From positions 31,294,848 to 31,358,847 of the forward strand of contig CM055111.1 in the NCBI GenBank assembly GCA_029204225.1: 64,000 nt of DNA, read 5' to 3'. The position numbers and the translations under genes were made by a program. The stretch is from Diphasiastrum complanatum (Eukaryota; Streptophyta; Lycopodiopsida; Lycopodiales; Lycopodiaceae). This document shows positions 12,614 through 21,868 of the stretch, one piece after another; positions within the stretch are counted from its first letter, which is position 1, and each line of letters starts with the position of its first letter. The notes under the pieces are model-generated. The model was not told where the DNA came from. It saw only the letters and a program-made list of their open reading frames with translations, and did no database searches.

Positions 12614-12649
12614 ACATTAGAGGAGTTTTCAATATCAAAAAGACCCTTT
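12614..12649 (+). repeat. Left TIR of four-gene element copy 1
   Basis: Begins ACATTAGAGGAGTTTTCAAT. It is the reverse complement of 21833-21868 with one mismatch. The outermost A may belong to the target, which would make the element start CATTA. It lies on the gene X side. Confidence 0.9.
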
Positions 12650-13065
12650 GTAAAGATACTTTTATTTTATTTCTTTAGTTTCGACCATCACCAGGCCCAA
12701 TCAAAATGCACAAATTTGAAATCTACGTAACGTAGTTCAAATTAACTAAAAAAAAAAATGCAATATAGAAAACTTTGAAATTTGGGTCCGGGCAGCATGG
12801 ACATATCCCATTGCTTTATTCTTCCTGCCCGACACGTGCTAATCTGCCCGACGTCAATACCTCAAGTTAAATTTACTTGACTATGCTAGTTAGTATAGTT
12901 AAATTTTCTAACTATACTAGTTACAACTATAGAAATATAGTATGTACAGTTACATAGAATATGGTATACGCAGTTGGCATTCACATTAGATTAAATGTAA
13001 TACGAAAAATTGAAAGTAAGTATCATATAAGAGAGATTTTTGGCGCTCAAGCTTTGAAAATAGCA

Positions 13066-14310
13066 ATGGCAAGGAGACCCAGATCTACAATCGATTCTGT
13101 GATTCTTTACAATGAGAAAGATGAAGCTGATAACTGGAAGCCAACAAAATATACGAAGAACTCATGAATATTGCTGCATATATCATCAAAGGGCAATTTT
13201 CGACAAAGAAAAGAGCAAAAATGACTTACAAATCTTATTGGAAAGCAAAAATTTTGGAGTTTAAGACTACCTCGGGAGGTCAATCGATATCAAAAGTCTT
13301 AGTGCAACATGTATATATGCATTTAGAAATCAAAGTACATGATATCAATCCTCATGATCATAAAAAATGTAATTGTAAGTATATCAAAACATATGCACTC
13401 TGCAACAATCATAGGTGATTTCCTTTATTGATGCTCTTCAGATTATGATGTGAATGCTTCAACATTGTTTTTTTCTTTCAGATTTATATCCATCATGCGT
13501 AAGTGAATGGGAGCCCGCATAATCACTTGCAGGAATATTAGACGTGATTAACTCTGATGTTGAAAAGCTGCAATATAGGGGAAGAAGTCCAAAGGAACTT
13601 GTAGATTGTGATATCTATTTTAATAAATCTTTATATACGCCACAAACAGATGCAAATTTTGGCAAGCTCGAAGTGATTCCATTGCCTAGTTTTCAAAGTG
13701 ATGAGTGGCCTACTCTTGACAGCATTGTTTCTGAATTTTTGAGATGCAAGCTACTCATTGATATTAGAAATGCTATGAAGATAAGCACAGGCTCAAAAAT
13801 TGTTCACCTAAGTTGGTTTATCTCATTGCATATATTTGTTGATTTTTTCTCGAGTGCTAGTGTTCCTAGGACACCAACTTTATTTGTTTGCAAGGATTTA
13901 TCATATGAGACTTTGTCAGATCTCATGAATCAAGGCTGGGATAGTAAAACAAATAATGACATAGAATGCAGGATTAAAAAGTCCTCAATGATCTTTCGTT
14001 ATCATATCAAAAACCAAATGCTCAGTCTCACATTTAGCTACCAGTGATACAAGAAAATTGAAGGTACATGGCTACCACTGGATCAAGTCTTTGAACTAAA
14101 TGGTCACACAAACCAAATGGAGATAAGCATTATCTACAATGAGGAATATTTGACTATGGTTGAGGTGGAAGAGCATTTGAAGCTTGATTTTATCTAAAAA
14201 TAGAGCTCATGCTATTACAAACCAATCTACCAACATATTTCAGATTTGTCAACGGAAGACTCATAAGTACTTTATGTTTATTGCCATTTCAAAATAGAAC
14301 AAAAAAATAG
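13066..14310 (+). pseudogene. Gene X of four-gene element copy 1, unknown function
   Basis: Not recognised as a known family. The product starts MARRPRSTIDSVILYNEKD. A conserved block (YKSYWKAKILEF, then VLVQHVYMH) is followed by a CNCK motif, an intron around 13415-13481 (acceptor TTTCTTTCAG), and a second exon starting DLYPSCVSEWEP with LPSF, DEW and SSMIFRYHIKNQ motifs. Homologues in the window are 46865-48077 and 58131-59356, both minus, always the outermost gene at one end and convergent with the Ulp1 gene. The W-x-x-I-L-E-F ... Q-H-V-Y block is faintly like chromatin-reader folds such as BAH, but that is only a guess. Protein similarity across diverged copies implies past selection. A few in-frame stops and frame changes break this copy. 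The start was chosen by alignment with copies 2 and 3 (MASGSRRPRS in copy 3). Confidence 0.75.
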
Positions 14311-14631
14311 AAAATGTCATCATTTACAATTGCACATTCACTAGTATTTACCATGTCACAGATGCGAAAAAGACAAGAGCTGATAACATGCTGCAAAGAT
14401 CTACCTACAACAATCACCATTGTGGGAGAACAATAGTTTCAAATACACTTTAGTAAAAATCTGTGTATACACTCTTTTATTCAATAAATGAACGCCCAAG
14501 TTGGGCATCTGTACATGTATTTTGTGCTCTCAAATTCATAAACTAGAACAACATTTGATATATCAATGTATATTTTTCTATGAAGTCTATACATGTATTT
14601 TTGTTCTATGCTATTTATATTTTTTTTTATC
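14311..14631. other. Convergent intergenic spacer between gene X and H3-Ulp1
   Basis: AT-rich spacer between two facing stop codons. It contains AATAAA-like signals for both directions, for example TTCAATAAATGA near 14480. Probably the overlapping 3' UTR region of both genes; no further gene seen. Confidence 0.5.
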
Positions 14632-16384
14632 TTAATTTAGTATAACTACATCATCCTTTGCACCATCATCAATAACGGGAGTCTGAAGCCTTGCCCTAGC
14701 CAGTATACTCAGGGTAATTTCTTGTCTAAATCTGTACACCTGGCTTGATGTGTACTCATGAAGTGTAAACTGCAAAATAGAACATTCATGTAATAGTAAT
14801 GGCCAAAAACATCACCATAATAGAAATCTAATCATGATTCCAAAATAAGAATAAATAGAATTTATTACCTTAGAAATATCAACATCTTGTTGAAGGTTGA
14901 ACCACTCTAAAAACAACCTGGCATTGTATAATGTGTACCACCCACAGCTGAATGAATCATTTTGCTGGGGTGACTGCAAAGTAATTCAGCACACAAGAAA
15001 TCAATTAAGAAACAAAATGAATTAGATTGAAAATAATTCATTAGAATACTGATTTCAAAATGCTATTAAGAAAGACAGAGTTTACCTCCAAACTGATGAT
15101 CTGCCAGTCCACAGAATGGGGAACGTTTGGAGGAATATATCTACTTAGATATGGAAGGTATATATCTACATCCTTGTGCATATTTCTCACTGAATTCATC
15201 TTGACAGAAAAACCTTTAATAATATTATTTACAGATATCTTAATAGAGATCGGGATTAAACTCCAGTGGTCACTGCAAAATAAGATTGAAATTTCTTTAG
15301 CTGCAATTCTGAGAACTATTTTCATTGACAATGTCAATGTTAATGCATAAAACAACAAGAAGCATTTAATATATCTTACTTCGTATGATAAGGTATGAGC
15401 AGATATTTTGTTGCTGGTGTAAATCCACTTGCCAGACACTGTGACAATGTGTCATTGTTCTCGTTGAAGGCCTGAAGTAGAAAGTTACTCAGCACCACCA
15501 ACTCATTTGATGAATCTCTTGCAATGTCATATTGCAAGAGTGTAAGCCTGCACTCTTTCACAGGATCACTGATAGGAGTCCGTCTGACTTTGAGATCCAA
15601 GCAATCTATAACTCTAAACTTAATACTAAAATCAAGTTCATCTAGTCTAAAGCAAAAAGGAGTACCAATAGTATCTATAGCATCGGGTATGTCTTTCTCA
15701 AATTTAAGATAATCACCTGAATCTATATATGTATAAAAATCTGGAGGAGGAGGAGGAGGTGGATGTGTAGTATCTACAGCAATTGAAGGGGTATCCAAAA
15801 CAGAGGTAGCTATATTTACAGCATTATCAACAACAACGTTATCTACAATGGATTATGGGTTAGGCCTCACAGAATCTAATGGGTTAGGCTTCACTTTCTT
15901 AGGAGCATGCTTGGGGGTTGTCTGCTTCCTAGGACGCTTCGTAGGAAGATCAGTCCTATCTACAAGAGTTGGTCTAGGAGCAGCAGACTGAGATACATGT
16001 AACCTACAGTACCTATCCCTCATCCTCATCAGGAGCTAAAAATCCTTGGGCATTATGGTAACCTCTTGGAATGGATGGCAAGCAAAAAAGATTCCTAAAA
16101 AAACAGGCTAATGTAATCTTCAGCAGCCTCCTGAAGGCACTGAAGAGCACTGGGTGTGAATCTAACTAGCTGTTCGAGATCATTTCTTGTAATGTTCAGG
16201 ACAACACGGTAGAATGGAACTGTTGGGATCAACAGAGCTGTTGATCTCTGATACTTGCGTATCTCATAGAGCCACCTGCTGCGGTTGCGCATTCTAGGTC
16301 TAGCGGGTGGTGTGATGGCAACCACAGGGGATGAGGATGAGGCAGGAGAGAAAAAGTTCTCCTTGTCTGCTTTCTCCTATCCAT
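14632..16384 (-). pseudogene. Histone H3-fold domain fused to Ulp1-like cysteine protease
   Basis: Minus strand. The N-terminal part (16325 down to about 16030) reads as an H3 fold: EIRKYQRSTALLIP (end of alpha-N and alpha-1), PFYRVVLNITRNDL, FTPSALQCLQEAAEDYIS (alpha-2), AIHSK, then VTIMPKD (alpha-3), with a frame change just before VTIMPKD and stops at two points. LLIP and QEAAEDY resemble plant CENH3 more than canonical H3. A basic linker (KRPRKQTTPKHAPKKVK) and a proline run follow. Then comes a Ulp1/C48-type protease: YLLIPYH, intron, NDHWSLI (catalytic His), intron, SPQQNDSFSCGWYTLYN (Gln and Cys), intron, and a last exon at 14632-14769. The predicted role is SUMO or SUMO-like cleavage in the nucleus. 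It diverges from gene Y and converges with gene X. The exact start is uncertain: ATG at 16382-16384 or an in-frame codon nearby. A few breaks make this copy non-functional. Confidence 0.85.
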
Positions 16385-16399
16385 GGATGTGTACTATGT

Positions 16400-17185
16400 G
16401 ATAGCGGACTTGTGCGTGATGGTTAGGATGAGCAGGGAGGAATGATAAAGAACTTGTAGATGACCGATATGTACGGACAAAATGTACGGTATATCAAACT
16501 TGTGCAAGCCAAATATTAGAGAGAACGATTAGTTTTGAGGAAAGACGCACAAGTGTGATATGGGGTGACACGTAGACAGACGTATCGCACCTGTGCTCAT
16601 GGAAGGCGATAGGAGGAATTTCGATTGTGAAGGACGCTCACAAGTGCGATATTGCGAAGCCTAAAAAAAATAAAAAAATTCATCAAAGTTTGTGATTTTA
16701 TATCGCGGTTCGCACGTGCAAAAGAATGTCCTATCACACATGTGGGAGTTGTACGGACAAAGGCGAGAGTGGCACATGCCACCCTGTCACATTACATGTG
16801 TGAGATTTGTACGATCAAATGCGAGAGCGACACGTGTTGTCGAGCAAACGAATGAACATGCAACACGTGTCCAAGTGTCATTTCACACGTGTGTAGGTGT
16901 CATCTCACACGTGCCTGCGCCTATAGTCCAATTGAAAGTTGATACGTGTCCTAAGCCTGTTGACCACATGTGCAAAAATTTAGTATAAATGGCACAAAAA
17001 TTGATTAATTTCGCGGCATATCACTCTTGTGCGAGCTCATTACTGTCCGTTTGCTTGCAACTGTACCTACTTGCGCACAAGTGCAATATTTGGTATATGT
17101 CTGCCATACATATCCCTCTTGTGCGCCATTTCGATAGTTAGTTTTGGTTCAGTTCTCCCTCGTGCACAAGTGTGATATTCACGTT
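16400..17185. promoter_or_regulatory. Palindromic motif array between divergent H3-Ulp1 and Y genes
   Basis: About 15-18 imperfect copies of a palindrome of the form ATATCGCAC-N2-GTGCGATAT, often as halves. Examples are CGCACAAGTGTGATA (16546), TATCGCACCTGTGC (16583), CTCACAAGTGCGATATTG (16636), CGCACGTGCAAAAG (16711), ACACGTGT (16863), CTCACACGTGCC (16905), TCTTGTGCGAGC (17025), GCGCACAAGTGCAATATT (17073), CTCTTGTGCGCC (17116) and GCACAAGTGTGATATTC (17164). Cores are usually CAC-N2-GTG. A TATA-like TAGTATAAAT at 16981 points toward gene Y. By analogy with TNPA or Ac transposase sites this may be a binding platform; E-box-like CACGTG cores could also bind host bHLH/bZIP factors. Open frames across it are artefacts. 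Confidence 0.8.
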
Positions 17186-17191
17186 ACTGCC

Positions 17192-18666
17192 ATGGCCTCT
17201 TCCTCATCATCCTCATGAGATTCAGGCTTGAGTTCATTTCTTGGTGAATTTGGGATGACTGAAAACCTAGACTATTTCCACAGTCTATTCAGGACTGCAC
17301 AACCAAATTCTGACGTATTTTATGACCATCATGTCAGATTCAGAAATATACTTAGTAAGCTTGTTTTATCCATAGGTCCACTCTAGTACATGCATTGTAC
17401 TGATCTTGTTCATTTCTTCCCAGCTTTTAGCCATAGACTGGATAGAATGTTCACCAATTTGTTTGATCTTTTCAAAAGCAGTTCAATGTGTCCGTATTGC
17501 AACAAGAAATGGTTGAATTTCAAAGTGGTTTTGTACTTTTCTTGTTAGTTCAAATCCTAGATGATGATGAAGTTTATGTTGCTGACCCTCCTTTTGCACC
17601 ATCCTCTGTTCAGTCAGCTATTAAGGATATCAGTCACTTTCTTATCGACACTTCTAATAAGGAAAGTGACTTTATTGATGTAAATACTGATGTTATCCGA
17701 GATTCTTTCATTGGCCAAAATACATCTGATGATGAATCCAAATCTATGGAGGAGTCAAAATGTCTTTTCAATTTGCCTATATATTATATTAATGATGATG
17801 TATATTTTACTACTGTTGATTTATGTAAATTTTTTGACTATCATGAGGACGAGGTTCTATGTTTATTATCCGGCACAATTTTCGAATTCTCCGACTTTGT
17901 AGATTTTAAATTAGATGACCTTGTTGCTGGTATTGATTTTGATGATGAGGAGGGACTTATGACCGGTGAAGAATGTCTGAATAAGACTTTATCAAATATA
18001 GCTAAGGATGGGCAAGGCAGACCATCCGATAAGAATTCACGGCATTTCAATCCCAGATGGGCTTCCCTCGCCCATCATTAATGCATTTCACTAATGATTC
18101 CACTTCAGTACGTGCTCATTATATTGATCATCCTGATCTGGTTGCTGTTGATGATGAAGAATGTGTAAGTGTTTAATCTTCCTTGCATTTGAATGTTTTC
18201 AATCACTGAATGTGTTTTTGCTAACATATTTCCTATTGCAGAATGCTCTCATAATAGATGAGTTTGCTACGAGACGAGGTGGTTTCAGACAACAGGCATT
18301 CTCGTTCCAGAGGGACAGTGGACTGGACCACTATCTTAGGCATTTCTTGAAGAATGATATCTGTATTGCTCATTCCAAGCTGAGCCCAGTCAGGGTGAGT
18401 CCTATAATGGCAATTAAAGCTTTATCATTTTACCTAGGAGGACATAAATTTGTTAAGATGAATAAGATCATTTCTGTCAAAAGAATGTATGTTTTGAATA
18501 TTTTAGGCTTTACTGATGGGAATGTTCCTTTAAGGAGCTCCCATTATTCATTGTATTCCACTTATATTGAGCTAGTGGAAATAAGGATAATGCACATCTA
18601 TTAGATGCATACGCTAGCAGAGAATTTCTTCATGACAATACTGCCATAGATTCTGATGATGAATAG
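17192..18666 (+). pseudogene. Gene Y of four-gene element copy 1, acidic protein of unknown function
   Basis: Not recognised. It starts MASSSSSS just after the motif array, then runs FLGEFGMTENLDYFHSLFRT and a possible zinc knuckle SSMCPYCNKKW near 17490. A strongly acidic middle follows (ILDDDEVYVADPPF, DFDDEEG), then DEEC before an intron (about 18163-18240, donor GTAAGT, acceptor CTATTGCAG), and a last exon with DEFATRRGGFRQQAFSFQRD and a C-terminus of type LLDAYASREFLHD. The last roughly 65 residues align with minus-strand 45543-45768 in copy 2, at the same relative place and orientation, which shows Y belongs to the element. Two early stops and two or three frame changes are present. An accessory DNA-binding or regulatory protein is possible, but this is inference only. 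Confidence 0.65.
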
Positions 18667-18801
18667 TTGACACTTTGTATTTTGGTATAATACAATCAAT
18701 ACATTTACATTGGGTATTTCTCCTCTCTTGTTGAATGAATTTGCAAAAGAAATTCTGAACATGTCATGATTTGATGACAATGATGATTTTCTACTCATCA
18801 A

Positions 18802-21566
18802 TCATCTAATTTTCTCTTTTTGTATGAACTTGCATGCTTTTCTAAACTTGTTGTATTGTGTGGACTTTGTTATATGTCGAATCTGAACTCTGCGGTAGAA
18901 CCACTGAAACAATTGACAAATGTAGTTTCGTTTTTCATTGGTTCCTCCATGTTGTGTATTTCGATGAAATGTTGCTCGTGCTTGCCAGTGTGACTTCTCC
19001 ATCCCTTGTGATGACCATACACTCAAGCTTCTATATGTATTTGTAAAAAATGTTGTATGATCTCTTAGTATGTGCTACATATGTCAAAATCATAATGTTT
19101 GTCTTATGTTTGGATCTAAATATATATGAAAATTTGAAACCATTTTGAAAATTTTATACTAACCATGTAATGAATGATGTGATCTTCTCCCCATGCTTTT
19201 GATACTGCATTAACAAACTCGACACAAGTCCTTTGGATACCTTTCTTATCAATATCAGAGTATTTTTCTTTTCTTAAAATAGCAATCATACTATCAAGCT
19301 TTTTCCATACATCAACTTTTAGTACTCTGATTTGCCGTCTTTCTCGAAGTCCTGAGTGGCAGCAATAATATCTGTCCAGACTGAGTGTTGAATATTAGAA
19401 GCCTTACCAGTATGATTTGATAGAAAATGATGTGCTTTTGCTCTTGCTATGCTTGGCTTAGTTGGCATGTTCCCATTCTTTCTTGAAAGCTTTTCATCTA
19501 TTTGAATTTTGACATGTCCTTATGGAGTCTTGCTTTTGATAAAACATCTTTTAATCGAGAGATAGCTTCCTTTGCTAATGATGTTGGCTTAGTATTCCAA
19601 GCAAAAACTATATGAAGATAAATGATCTTTTCTATTTATCTAACTTCTGCATGAAGAGTGCAGACATGCATATTTTTTAAGGGGATAGGCAGCACAGGCT
19701 TCCAGTTTGGATCTACATATTCTCTAGTAATTCATGTACTCCTAGTTACATCTTTTGCCATTTTCATACAGTACAAACAAGGTTGTTTTGATGTAGCACC
19801 ATGAGAGACATTATACATACATTTCAATGTTTTCAAATCACCTGCTAAGTGTCATTCAACATTGAAGTCTCCAACTCTTGGAACATTGAGAAGTCCTCCA
19901 TCCATATGGTCCTTGATGATCCTAGGATAAGATGTCCTTGAGAATATCCATGATAATATATCATGATCCTCTTTTAGCACCTGTCCAAAGAATTAATCAG
20001 ACTTAGTTTACAATGTATCAATACTATTCAATGAATGTAATGTAATAATGAGGCTAGTTACCTGAAACGCTACCAAGCACCATATATCATTTTATGACTG
20101 AATCTGAAATCTTCTTGGTTCTCTGTTTGTGATAGGGCACCATTCATGAGAGTTATACTAAGCCTCTCCATCTTCTGCCCTTTCACAATCTGACTCATCT
20201 AACTTAAGTTCTATGATTATTTTGCCTTTCACCTTTTCACAGGTTATATCATAGAATGTGACGATGTATCTCGGCAGATAATTTAGATCAACAAATCAAT
20301 TGTTTGATGAATTATAGAATATTAATCTTCCATCAGTTTCATACACCTCCTCAATATGAAATGCAGTTCCAGTGATCTTATGCATACCTATGTTTAATGT
20401 ATCCATCTCTTTCTTCAAGTGATATGTCCTAGGGATTGGGACTTTTCTAATCTGAACTTGCTTAAAAGCTTCTCTAATTGATTTAAATATGGTTGCATAT
20501 GATTCCCTGCTAATACCTGCAAAATCACAAGCACCCCGAACTATAGTCTTATCTAAAAAAATTTGAATGTCCACCATCAAAGACTCTGCTATTTTACACT
20601 TTACATTTGAAATCCTATTGTTCATCATGATACGCTCAGTGGATTTGCAAGTCAATATTGTGCCGAATGACATTCCTAGTGAAGCATTGTCTTTAATATT
20701 CCGAGGTGCTACTAATGCAGATTAAACAGATAGTTAACAGAATATCACCATAGCTGAAATTAAATCCAAATGTCATTGAAAATTTTAAAAAATTCAGAAT
20801 ATGCTTACTTGAATGCACGGATCCTTCTATTTTGATAACCTCCTTTTGAAAGCGTTTGAATATCCTTGCAACTTTGTCGCTTTCGCTTCTTACTTTCAGC
20901 CTTCTTCTTTGCCAAATCCACATCCTTCAATAATTGTAAGTTTTTAATATGACTAGGCTGTAAGACTGATTGCATTTGCTCTAGTTCTAATTTGATATTG
21001 ATTGTTATTTTCGGTAATGATTTATTGTTTTTTTTAAGCTGTTCATTTTCTTCTAACATCTTTTGGAGATGACAATCTCTATTATGACAATAAGAGGATA
21101 TCTGAATTAACTCACCCTCTAAAAAGTGAACTTTATTCAATTAAAGTTGTTTTCCATGGTTCTGCAATCTTTCACAATATCCTAGTAATCCACTATGCCC
21201 ATTGCATATCCATGTAACTAAGTGAGTTATTGAAGAGAATGTGGGATGTGTCAAAGTGCTTGGATCTTGTGGATATAATATTCCATCTGTCCATAAATCC
21301 AAGTTTTTTTTTTTCCTTCTGCCCTGTAACGAGAGTCATCATAAAAAAAATAATAGAGTAATCAGTTGCATCAAAGTACTATAACCAGATTCTATGAAGC
21401 AAAATGAAATACTCATCTTTGATTATATTATATACTATGTACGATCAATCCAATCTCCATGCTTGTATGCTTGATTCAAATTTGGAAATGCCGCTCATTT
21501 TTTCATTCCAATAGGTAGTTGGTGCTCATAATTCCATTCTCGTGGAAGGAATGCATATGTAAACAT
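18802..21566 (-). pseudogene. Transposase-like gene of four-gene element copy 1
   Basis: Minus strand, at least five exons. N-terminus: MFTYAFLPREWNYEHQLPIG; then LDLWTDGILYPQD; a lysine-rich coiled coil (LQKMLEENEQLKKNNKS) ending NRRIRAFK; intron; FGTILTCKSTERI ... QVQIRKVPIPRTYHLKKEMD; an intron at about 20061-19982; then GDFNVE, AGDLKTLKCMYNVSHGATSK, PCLYCMK; and a last exon WSSQGMEKSHWQARATFHRN. The G-D-L-K block, C-x-x-C and later S-Q-G-x-E-x-x-H are reminiscent of an RNase H-fold DDE layout with a zinc-binding insert, which from memory also occurs in uncharacterised animal transposase-like proteins. The catalytic acids are not proven. Intron positions match copy 2. It converges with gene Y. 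A handful of stops make this copy inactive. Confidence 0.7.
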
Positions 21567-21832
21567 TTTGCAATTTTTCCTGATTCAAATTTGGGGATGA
21601 CGGTCATATTCTAGATCCAGGGAAAATATTGCTCTTTTTGTAACCAATGGAGGGAATATTTTTGAATTTAGTCAAGCTATACGACGAACTGTTAACAGTT
21701 CTTAACTGTGACTATAGACATTGTGGTTAGATCATTGGAGTTGGGGAGGCCTTGGGAGTGGTGTGGGCAAGCAAATAAACAATATTGTTTTTTTTATTTT
21801 GATATTTTTCTATATCCTACATGGCATTTCTT

Positions 21833-21868
21833 AAAGGGTCTTTTTGATATTGAGAACTCCTCTAATGT
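21833..21868 (-). repeat. Right TIR of four-gene element copy 1
   Basis: Ends TTGAGAACTCCTCTAATGT and is the inverse of 12614-12649 with one mismatch. Just inside it, GGCATTTCTTA also matches the inverse of the copy 2 left end (TAAGAAATGCC), so family conservation extends beyond the TIR. Confidence 0.9.

Follow-up and report, generated by a model that had tools for sequence, protein, structure and literature searches.

Transposons are known to take over silencing enzymes or to obstruct them. Among DNA transposons, the KDZ (Kyakuja-Dileera-Zisupton) and Ginger groups are associated with Ulp1 domains, and we know of no histone in either of them; giant viruses encode histones of their own. In Arabidopsis, VANDAL transposons encode the anti-silencing protein VANC, which clears silent marks from its own family, and some VANC proteins, in KIU elements, carry an Ulp1 domain, as described in two papers (PMC13317346, PMC10398659). 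VANC is the closest functional precedent for the role proposed here. Full-text searches of open-licence PubMed Central papers listed none that describes, in its title or opening abstract lines, an H3 carried by a transposon or joined to Ulp1. A mobile element with its own selected H3 would have the silenced substrate as its point of action, and it would open to experiment the question of whether nucleosome composition can be changed by a selfish element; as a natural H3 variant with about half of its fold differing from that of the host, such a protein would also reveal the residues that are indispensable to a functional H3.

We analyzed a stretch of 64,000 nucleotides from Diphasiastrum complanatum (the window, part of contig C20) and searched one genome (1.74 Gb, 5176 contigs). 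The original prediction placed an H3-protease gene inside a DNA transposon, and the window gene does lie within a 9,253-bp element bounded by inverted repeats of about 35 bp, the first letters of which are CATTAGAGGAG. The features of this element are as follows.

12615..21867, no strand assigned: family A transposon, 9,253 bp, with inverted termini; copy ends at identical bases
12615..12649, plus strand: terminal inverted repeat, CATTAGAGGAGTTTTCAATATCAAAAAGACCCTTT
13523..14047, plus strand: gene X remnant, convergent to the H3-Ulp1 gene; function not assigned by Pfam
14632..14769, minus strand: exon 4 of the H3-Ulp1 pseudogene, C-terminus and stop
14869..14973, minus strand: exon 3, protease part with SPQQNDSFSCGWY (Cys)
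15086..15272, minus strand: exon 2, protease part with NDHWSL (His) and KMNS (Asn; Ulp1 has Asp there)
15380..16384, minus strand: exon 1, with H3 tip, H3 fold, basic linker and protease start
16015..16306, minus strand: H3 fold (approximate, projected from residues 27-123 of the L023 protein)
17467..18081, plus strand: possible gene Y, an open frame with weak by-eye likeness to a family-B frame
18603..21377, minus strand: decayed transposase-like gene T, upstream of the H3-Ulp1 gene and in the same direction
21833..21867, minus strand: terminal inverted repeat, CATTAGAGGAGTTCTCAATATCAAAAAGACCCTTT

Terminal inverted repeats were found at both ends of dispersed copies (the window copy, L018 together with L034, L029 and L030), and the element, used as a genome query, gave matches that were 81-99% identical over most of its length (22 best of 8768 candidates). 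The window element sits inside a Copia reading frame, and its joined flanks give a single frame (...YLQETKDY/GLCYSKEAGF...) with no base gained or lost. The joined flanks of L018 (280 bp) matched 40 scored genome places at 94-98% identity, 29 of which align across all 280 bases at equal length. No target-site duplication was seen by eye in any of the four complete copies; such a duplication is usual, not universal, for DNA transposons with terminal inverted repeats.

Homologues of gene T lie near H3 genes in loci of families A, B and C, with longer frames in L016, L024 and L034. Pieces of T matched no Pfam family above cut-off, Mutator transposase included; for KDZ, where Pfam profiles alone were compared, the pieces were again without a match. 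Searches of T against the PDB gave no match, and those against viral contigs no relative. T may belong to a superfamily that has yet to be described and whose insertions do not duplicate the target. Gene X is present in loci of families A and B; its A and B homologues share 29-32% identity by tblastn (best E 4e-22), and in family B the homologue precedes the H3 gene. Gene X had no Pfam match, and a BAH domain, guessed by eye, was dropped on this result.

The locus resembles the VANDAL and KIU Mutator-like elements in that an accessory gene with an Ulp1 domain is part of a DNA transposon of a plant. It differs from them in that T has no Mutator match in Pfam, no target duplication was seen, and the partner of Ulp1 is a histone H3 fold. 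With KDZ and Ginger it shares the combination of DNA transposon and Ulp1, while T was placed in no superfamily. A selfish element with its own histone resembles the giant viruses in this respect; unlike these, the carrier here is a genome-resident transposon with terminal inverted repeats, and its H3 is fused to a protease.

The gene had been described as a single continuing one, in which H3-like peptides on the minus strand lead into a Ulp1-type protease. The peptides were located on that strand, in a gene running from 16384 to 14632, and the part from 16376 to 16095, up to the first stop, matched the histone profile PF00125 with an E value of 9.8e-15. The window copy is itself a pseudogene: its fold contains an in-frame TAG after ISLFF and a frameshift before VTIMPKD, and another stop lies in the linker, so that the earlier peptide reading had spanned frames. 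Continuity was found in other copies. All four implied exons have GT-AG borders in the window copy, and when the four-exon splicing model was applied to 10 family-A copies, L018 and L023 were stop-free over 470 codons and the other eight were broken. Spliced L023 matched both PF00125 (1e-27, residues 27-123) and Peptidase_C48, PF02902 (1.1e-10, residues 316-442), as did spliced L018 (8.7e-27 and 5.4e-10), and every one of these matches was above the Pfam gathering cut-off; the two profile searches that the original prediction had proposed therefore came out in its favor. By sequence, the histone part matched H3 chains in the PDB (best 6ftx_E, 1.3e-22), and a single-sequence structure prediction of a 93-residue window fragment was uninformative, with a mean pLDDT of 45.4. 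These results showed that an H3 fold and a Ulp1-type protease are encoded in one spliced frame, borne by a DNA transposon with terminal inverted repeats. The histone match is strong, the H3 part is no one-off insertion at this locus, and the order of H3 and protease recurs in families A and C.

A histone search of the genome listed at least 153 matches (150 of 6325 candidates were scored), comprising 13 full host H3 genes (163.7-165 bits), 3 short host-like exons and 137 others. Five divergent transposon H3 types were distinguished in this one genome.

Type A: the type in the window, H3-Ulp1
Type B (L009-L011, L013-L017, L021, L024, L025): H3 preceded by a long proline-rich stretch, Ulp1 not found
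Type C (L037, L039, L040, L043-L045; truncated copies L046-L048)
Type D (L022)
Type E (L028, L052, L053)

Outside type A, PF00125 was matched by L009 of type B (6.8e-29), L037 and L043 of type C (5.4e-25 and 1.3e-21), the truncated L048 (2.1e-17), L022 of type D (2.7e-26) and L028 of type E (4.3e-30); the tip frame of L053 had no Pfam match.

We measured dN/dS by the Nei-Gojobori method with bootstrap intervals. Between A subfamilies, values for the H3 fold were 0.11 (0.04-0.23) for L023-L020, 0.07 (0.02-0.17) for L023-L026 and 0.13 (0.06-0.28) for L020-L030. For the same pairs, in the same order, the linker gave 0.70, 0.55 and 0.49, with intervals reaching above 1, and protease exon 2 gave 0.63, 0.22 and 0.36. 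The H3 fold is under purifying selection between A subfamilies. Close pairs were near neutral in the fold, with wide intervals (L023-L018, 1.47 (0.37-4.56); L023 and the window copy, 0.71; L023-L030, 0.58), as expected of copies that degenerate once inserted. When all pairs, non-independent as they are, were pooled, dN/dS in family A was 0.35 for H3 and 0.96 for the linker; in family B, pooled in the same non-independent way, it was 0.44 for H3, 1.02 for the first 62 codons, 0.76 for the linker and 0.55 for gene X. Silent divergence of the L023-L020 pair was 0.46 in H3 and 0.09 in the first protease part, and this inequality among parts of one pair suggests recombination between A subfamilies. 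Purifying selection between subfamilies, the unbroken 470-codon frames of L018 and L023 and a domain order shared by divergent families leave it scarcely credible that these genes are captured pieces of host genes carried as functionless passengers, a reading to which the frequent capture of genes by transposons and the many broken copies, that of the window among them, would lend themselves.

Six transposon sequences (L023 of type A, L009 of B, L037 and L040 of C, L022 of D and L028 of E) were compared with host H3, to which they have a mean identity of 51%. All six have the host residue at seventeen positions: I51, Q55, L61, F67, R69, R83, F104, E105, D106, L109, H113, K115, R116, V117, T118, D123 and R129. 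Among these, we take R69, R83, K115, R116, V117 and T118 to be DNA contacts, and H113, R116, D123 and R129 presumably belong to the H3-H3' four-helix bundle; R63, K64, R72 and C110 vary among the six sequences. Invariance was found at 9 of 14 listed contact positions and at 8 of 72 others (Fisher p 6e-5), with a contact list that was drawn up after the alignment had been inspected, and with the listed lysines K56 and K122 outside the test. To judge by the alignment, this pattern of 17 positions would be expected of a fold that functions in nucleosomes. Thus, the proteins are like H3.1, H3.3 and CENH3 in their H3 fold (PF00125, 1e-27), their conserved DNA-contact and H3-H3' residues and their H3 tip. 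Unlike those histones, they are transposon-borne and multicopy, about half identical to host H3, have a short lysine-poor tail and are fused to a protease or, in family B, to a long proline-rich stretch.

The retained nucleosome-contact residues, and the company that the H3 gene keeps with transposase-like genes, could also be read in terms of transposition. The H3 fold would then bind H4, histone chaperones or bare DNA and thereby recruit the transposase complex to the ends of the element or to open chromatin, the protease would regulate that complex, and silencing would not be the target. Readers of the H3 tip guide recombinases other than these transposases, which is a further point in favor of this explanation. 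We consider it unlikely, since neither the loss of tail lysines with arginines kept nor the added protease is obviously explained by it.

As for the tail, among 29 tips in the fetched loci, found with a pattern that required K or E at position 4, K4 was present in 28 and K9 in none; type D has E at position 4. Genome-wide, there were 514 exact MARTKQTAR starts, 26 of them with K9, and the reversed pattern gave none for either. The 26 comprise 13 full host H3 genes, one host-like sequence (L054), two type E copies and 10 uninspected starts, while the 488 starts lacking K9 are non-independent, at least 67 of them coming from one cluster on contig C3. Start counts cannot test conservation of K4 because the patterns fix K4, and its retention is argued, from the sequences, by recurrence across types. 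K9 is kept in two of three type E copies (L052 and L053; MARTKQTARK), the sole non-host type seen with it, which rules out that K9 is always lost. Counted from tip to fold in five transposon tails of types A, C and D (family B was excluded for its much longer insert), lysines numbered 1, 1, 2, 3 and 1, compared with 8 in host H3, and arginines 8-10, compared with 7. Types A, B, C and E have retained the tip, and the remaining tail is unalignable. Such a tip with little else in common might serve as a decoy or inhibitor that, free or bound in chromatin, engages the proteins that read or write H3K4 or H3T3, or ties up chaperones; stable nucleosomes would then be unneeded. This seems to us rather improbable, as selection on the DNA-contact and H3-H3' residues exceeds what a tail decoy needs.

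The protease part of family A matched PF02902 with 44.0, 42.2 and 39.9 bits (cut-off, 20.7), and its matches in the PDB by sequence were weak (6dg4_A, 0.001; yeast Ulp1, 1euv_A, 0.0015). In a scan for the His-Asx motif in 20 loci, with a pattern that permitted Asn or Asp, such a stretch was recovered from 16, and the residue was Asn, never Asp, in all 16. HW was absent from the L040 stretch in a clear reading and was lost in L022, L026 and L029. The Cys motif keeps its Cys in 10 loci (the window, L018, L023, L029, L030, L036, L037, L040, L043 and L044), and the Cys is gone from the motif in L012, L039 and L042. The His, Asn and Cys motifs recur across families A and C. The domain is therefore like Ulp1/SENP (C48) proteases in its profile match (1.1e-10), its His and Cys motifs and its PDB matches (6dg4, 1euv), and unlike them in having Asn for Asp and in sitting behind a histone. 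A putative protease activity with an H-N-C set in place of H-D-C is possible but unproven; we are unsure of it because Asn replaces the catalytic Asp.

Weaker evidence, pieced together from several loci with no complete intact gene among them, suggests that family C also has H3-Ulp1. In tblastn searches with family A, the best E values were 8e-9 for the Cys exon (L040) and 6e-14 for the preceding part (L039); exons 1-2 from L045, the part that was searched for a whole C-type protease, had no Pfam match. Truncated family-C copies lack Ulp1, and tblastn found no Ulp1 beside the H3 gene in any of the 11 family-B loci. The fusion is not universal in transposon H3 genes, and the protease is not required by all such transposons, because family B is without it in 11 of 11 loci.

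Altogether, the most likely role, to which we give somewhat less than even confidence, would be to form nucleosomes as an H3 variant refractory to silencing marks and to deliver a deSUMOylase to chromatin. The transposon H3 would pair with H4, enter nucleosomes as an H3 variant and be deposited on the element itself. Its short, arginine-rich tail, an H3 tip with K4 kept, could bear active-type marks; marks of the K9 and K27 silencing types would be barred because K9 and nearly all other tail lysines are lost in most types. The tethered protease would strip SUMO off nearby silencing factors, and the net effect would be that the transposons stay expressible through an anti-silencing protein acting from within the nucleosome. 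We counted for this role the single two-domain frame, the low dN/dS of the fold, the invariant contact residues, the lysine-poor tails, the small share of MARTKQTAR starts with K9 (26 of 514), the protease motifs recurring in A and C, and the precedent of VANC in Arabidopsis. Counted against it were the K9 of type E and the E4 of type D, the dN/dS of 1.02 in the first 62 codons of family B, the variable R63, K64, R72 and C110, the Asn for Asp and the loss of some Cys, the lack of Ulp1 in family B and the near-neutral dN/dS within subfamilies. In its full form, that transposons make their own nucleosomal H3, markable at K4 but at scarcely any silencing lysine and with a SUMO protease tethered to it, and that their copies thereby come to lie in chromatin that the host cannot silence, the proposal is tentative and on balance doubtful.

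The H3 part had also been called CENH3-like, partly on the strength of LLIP and EAAEDY. Both motifs do differ from host H3 (LLIR, EAAEAY), and the CENH3 side of that comparison consists of hand-entered sequences. In an H3-fold tree of 20 rows (14 transposon sequences, one host H3 and five hand-entered references), with a midpoint root only, one branch (UFBoot 83, SH-aLRT 91, 84% of 200 bootstrap trees) separated the 14 transposon rows from host H3 and the reference CENH3s; branches are long, and 7 of 17 inner branches are weak. The transposon H3s are 40-54% identical to host H3 and 36-54% to the hand-entered plant CENH3s, and so appear roughly equidistant from the two. The label CENH3-like was thus not borne out, and a CENH3 origin was rejected on the tree; because the transposon rows form one side, the tree favors a single old H3 ancestor for these genes. 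The host CENH3 was not picked out, as a hand-entered Arabidopsis CENH3 query gave host H3 and transposon copies first.

A protein derived from CENH3 and directing the element to centromeres would be in keeping with LLIP in most types, with VRW in family C, which likewise resembles CENH3, and with one dense cluster of truncated copies on contig C3. We judge it very improbable: tree and identities do not favor CENH3, the cluster is one segment of one contig, and family A starts are scattered over contigs C1-C5 among the matches listed (the exact start MDRRKQTRR occurs 487 times genome-wide, and its reversal not once). The cluster, a 3-Mb segment at 18.5-21.7 Mb of C3, accounts for 67 of the 146 starts that one C subtype has; in three stretches from it (L046, L047 and L048) the H3 genes are truncated and lack Ulp1, and some of them have frames that are intact over about 170 codons. 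As a single segment of a single contig, the cluster does not support a general centromere mark.

The right terminus of family B likewise begins with CATTAG (CATTAGGGCCCTTTTTGGACTCAAAAAGGGCC); the B loci yielded no left terminus. L036 and L038 are deletion derivatives of the A and B types in which long open frames pass from T sequence directly into the H3 fold. Finally, in L022 and L043, family A-like element ends lie within or adjoining other H3 transposon genes; therefore, the elements insert into each other.
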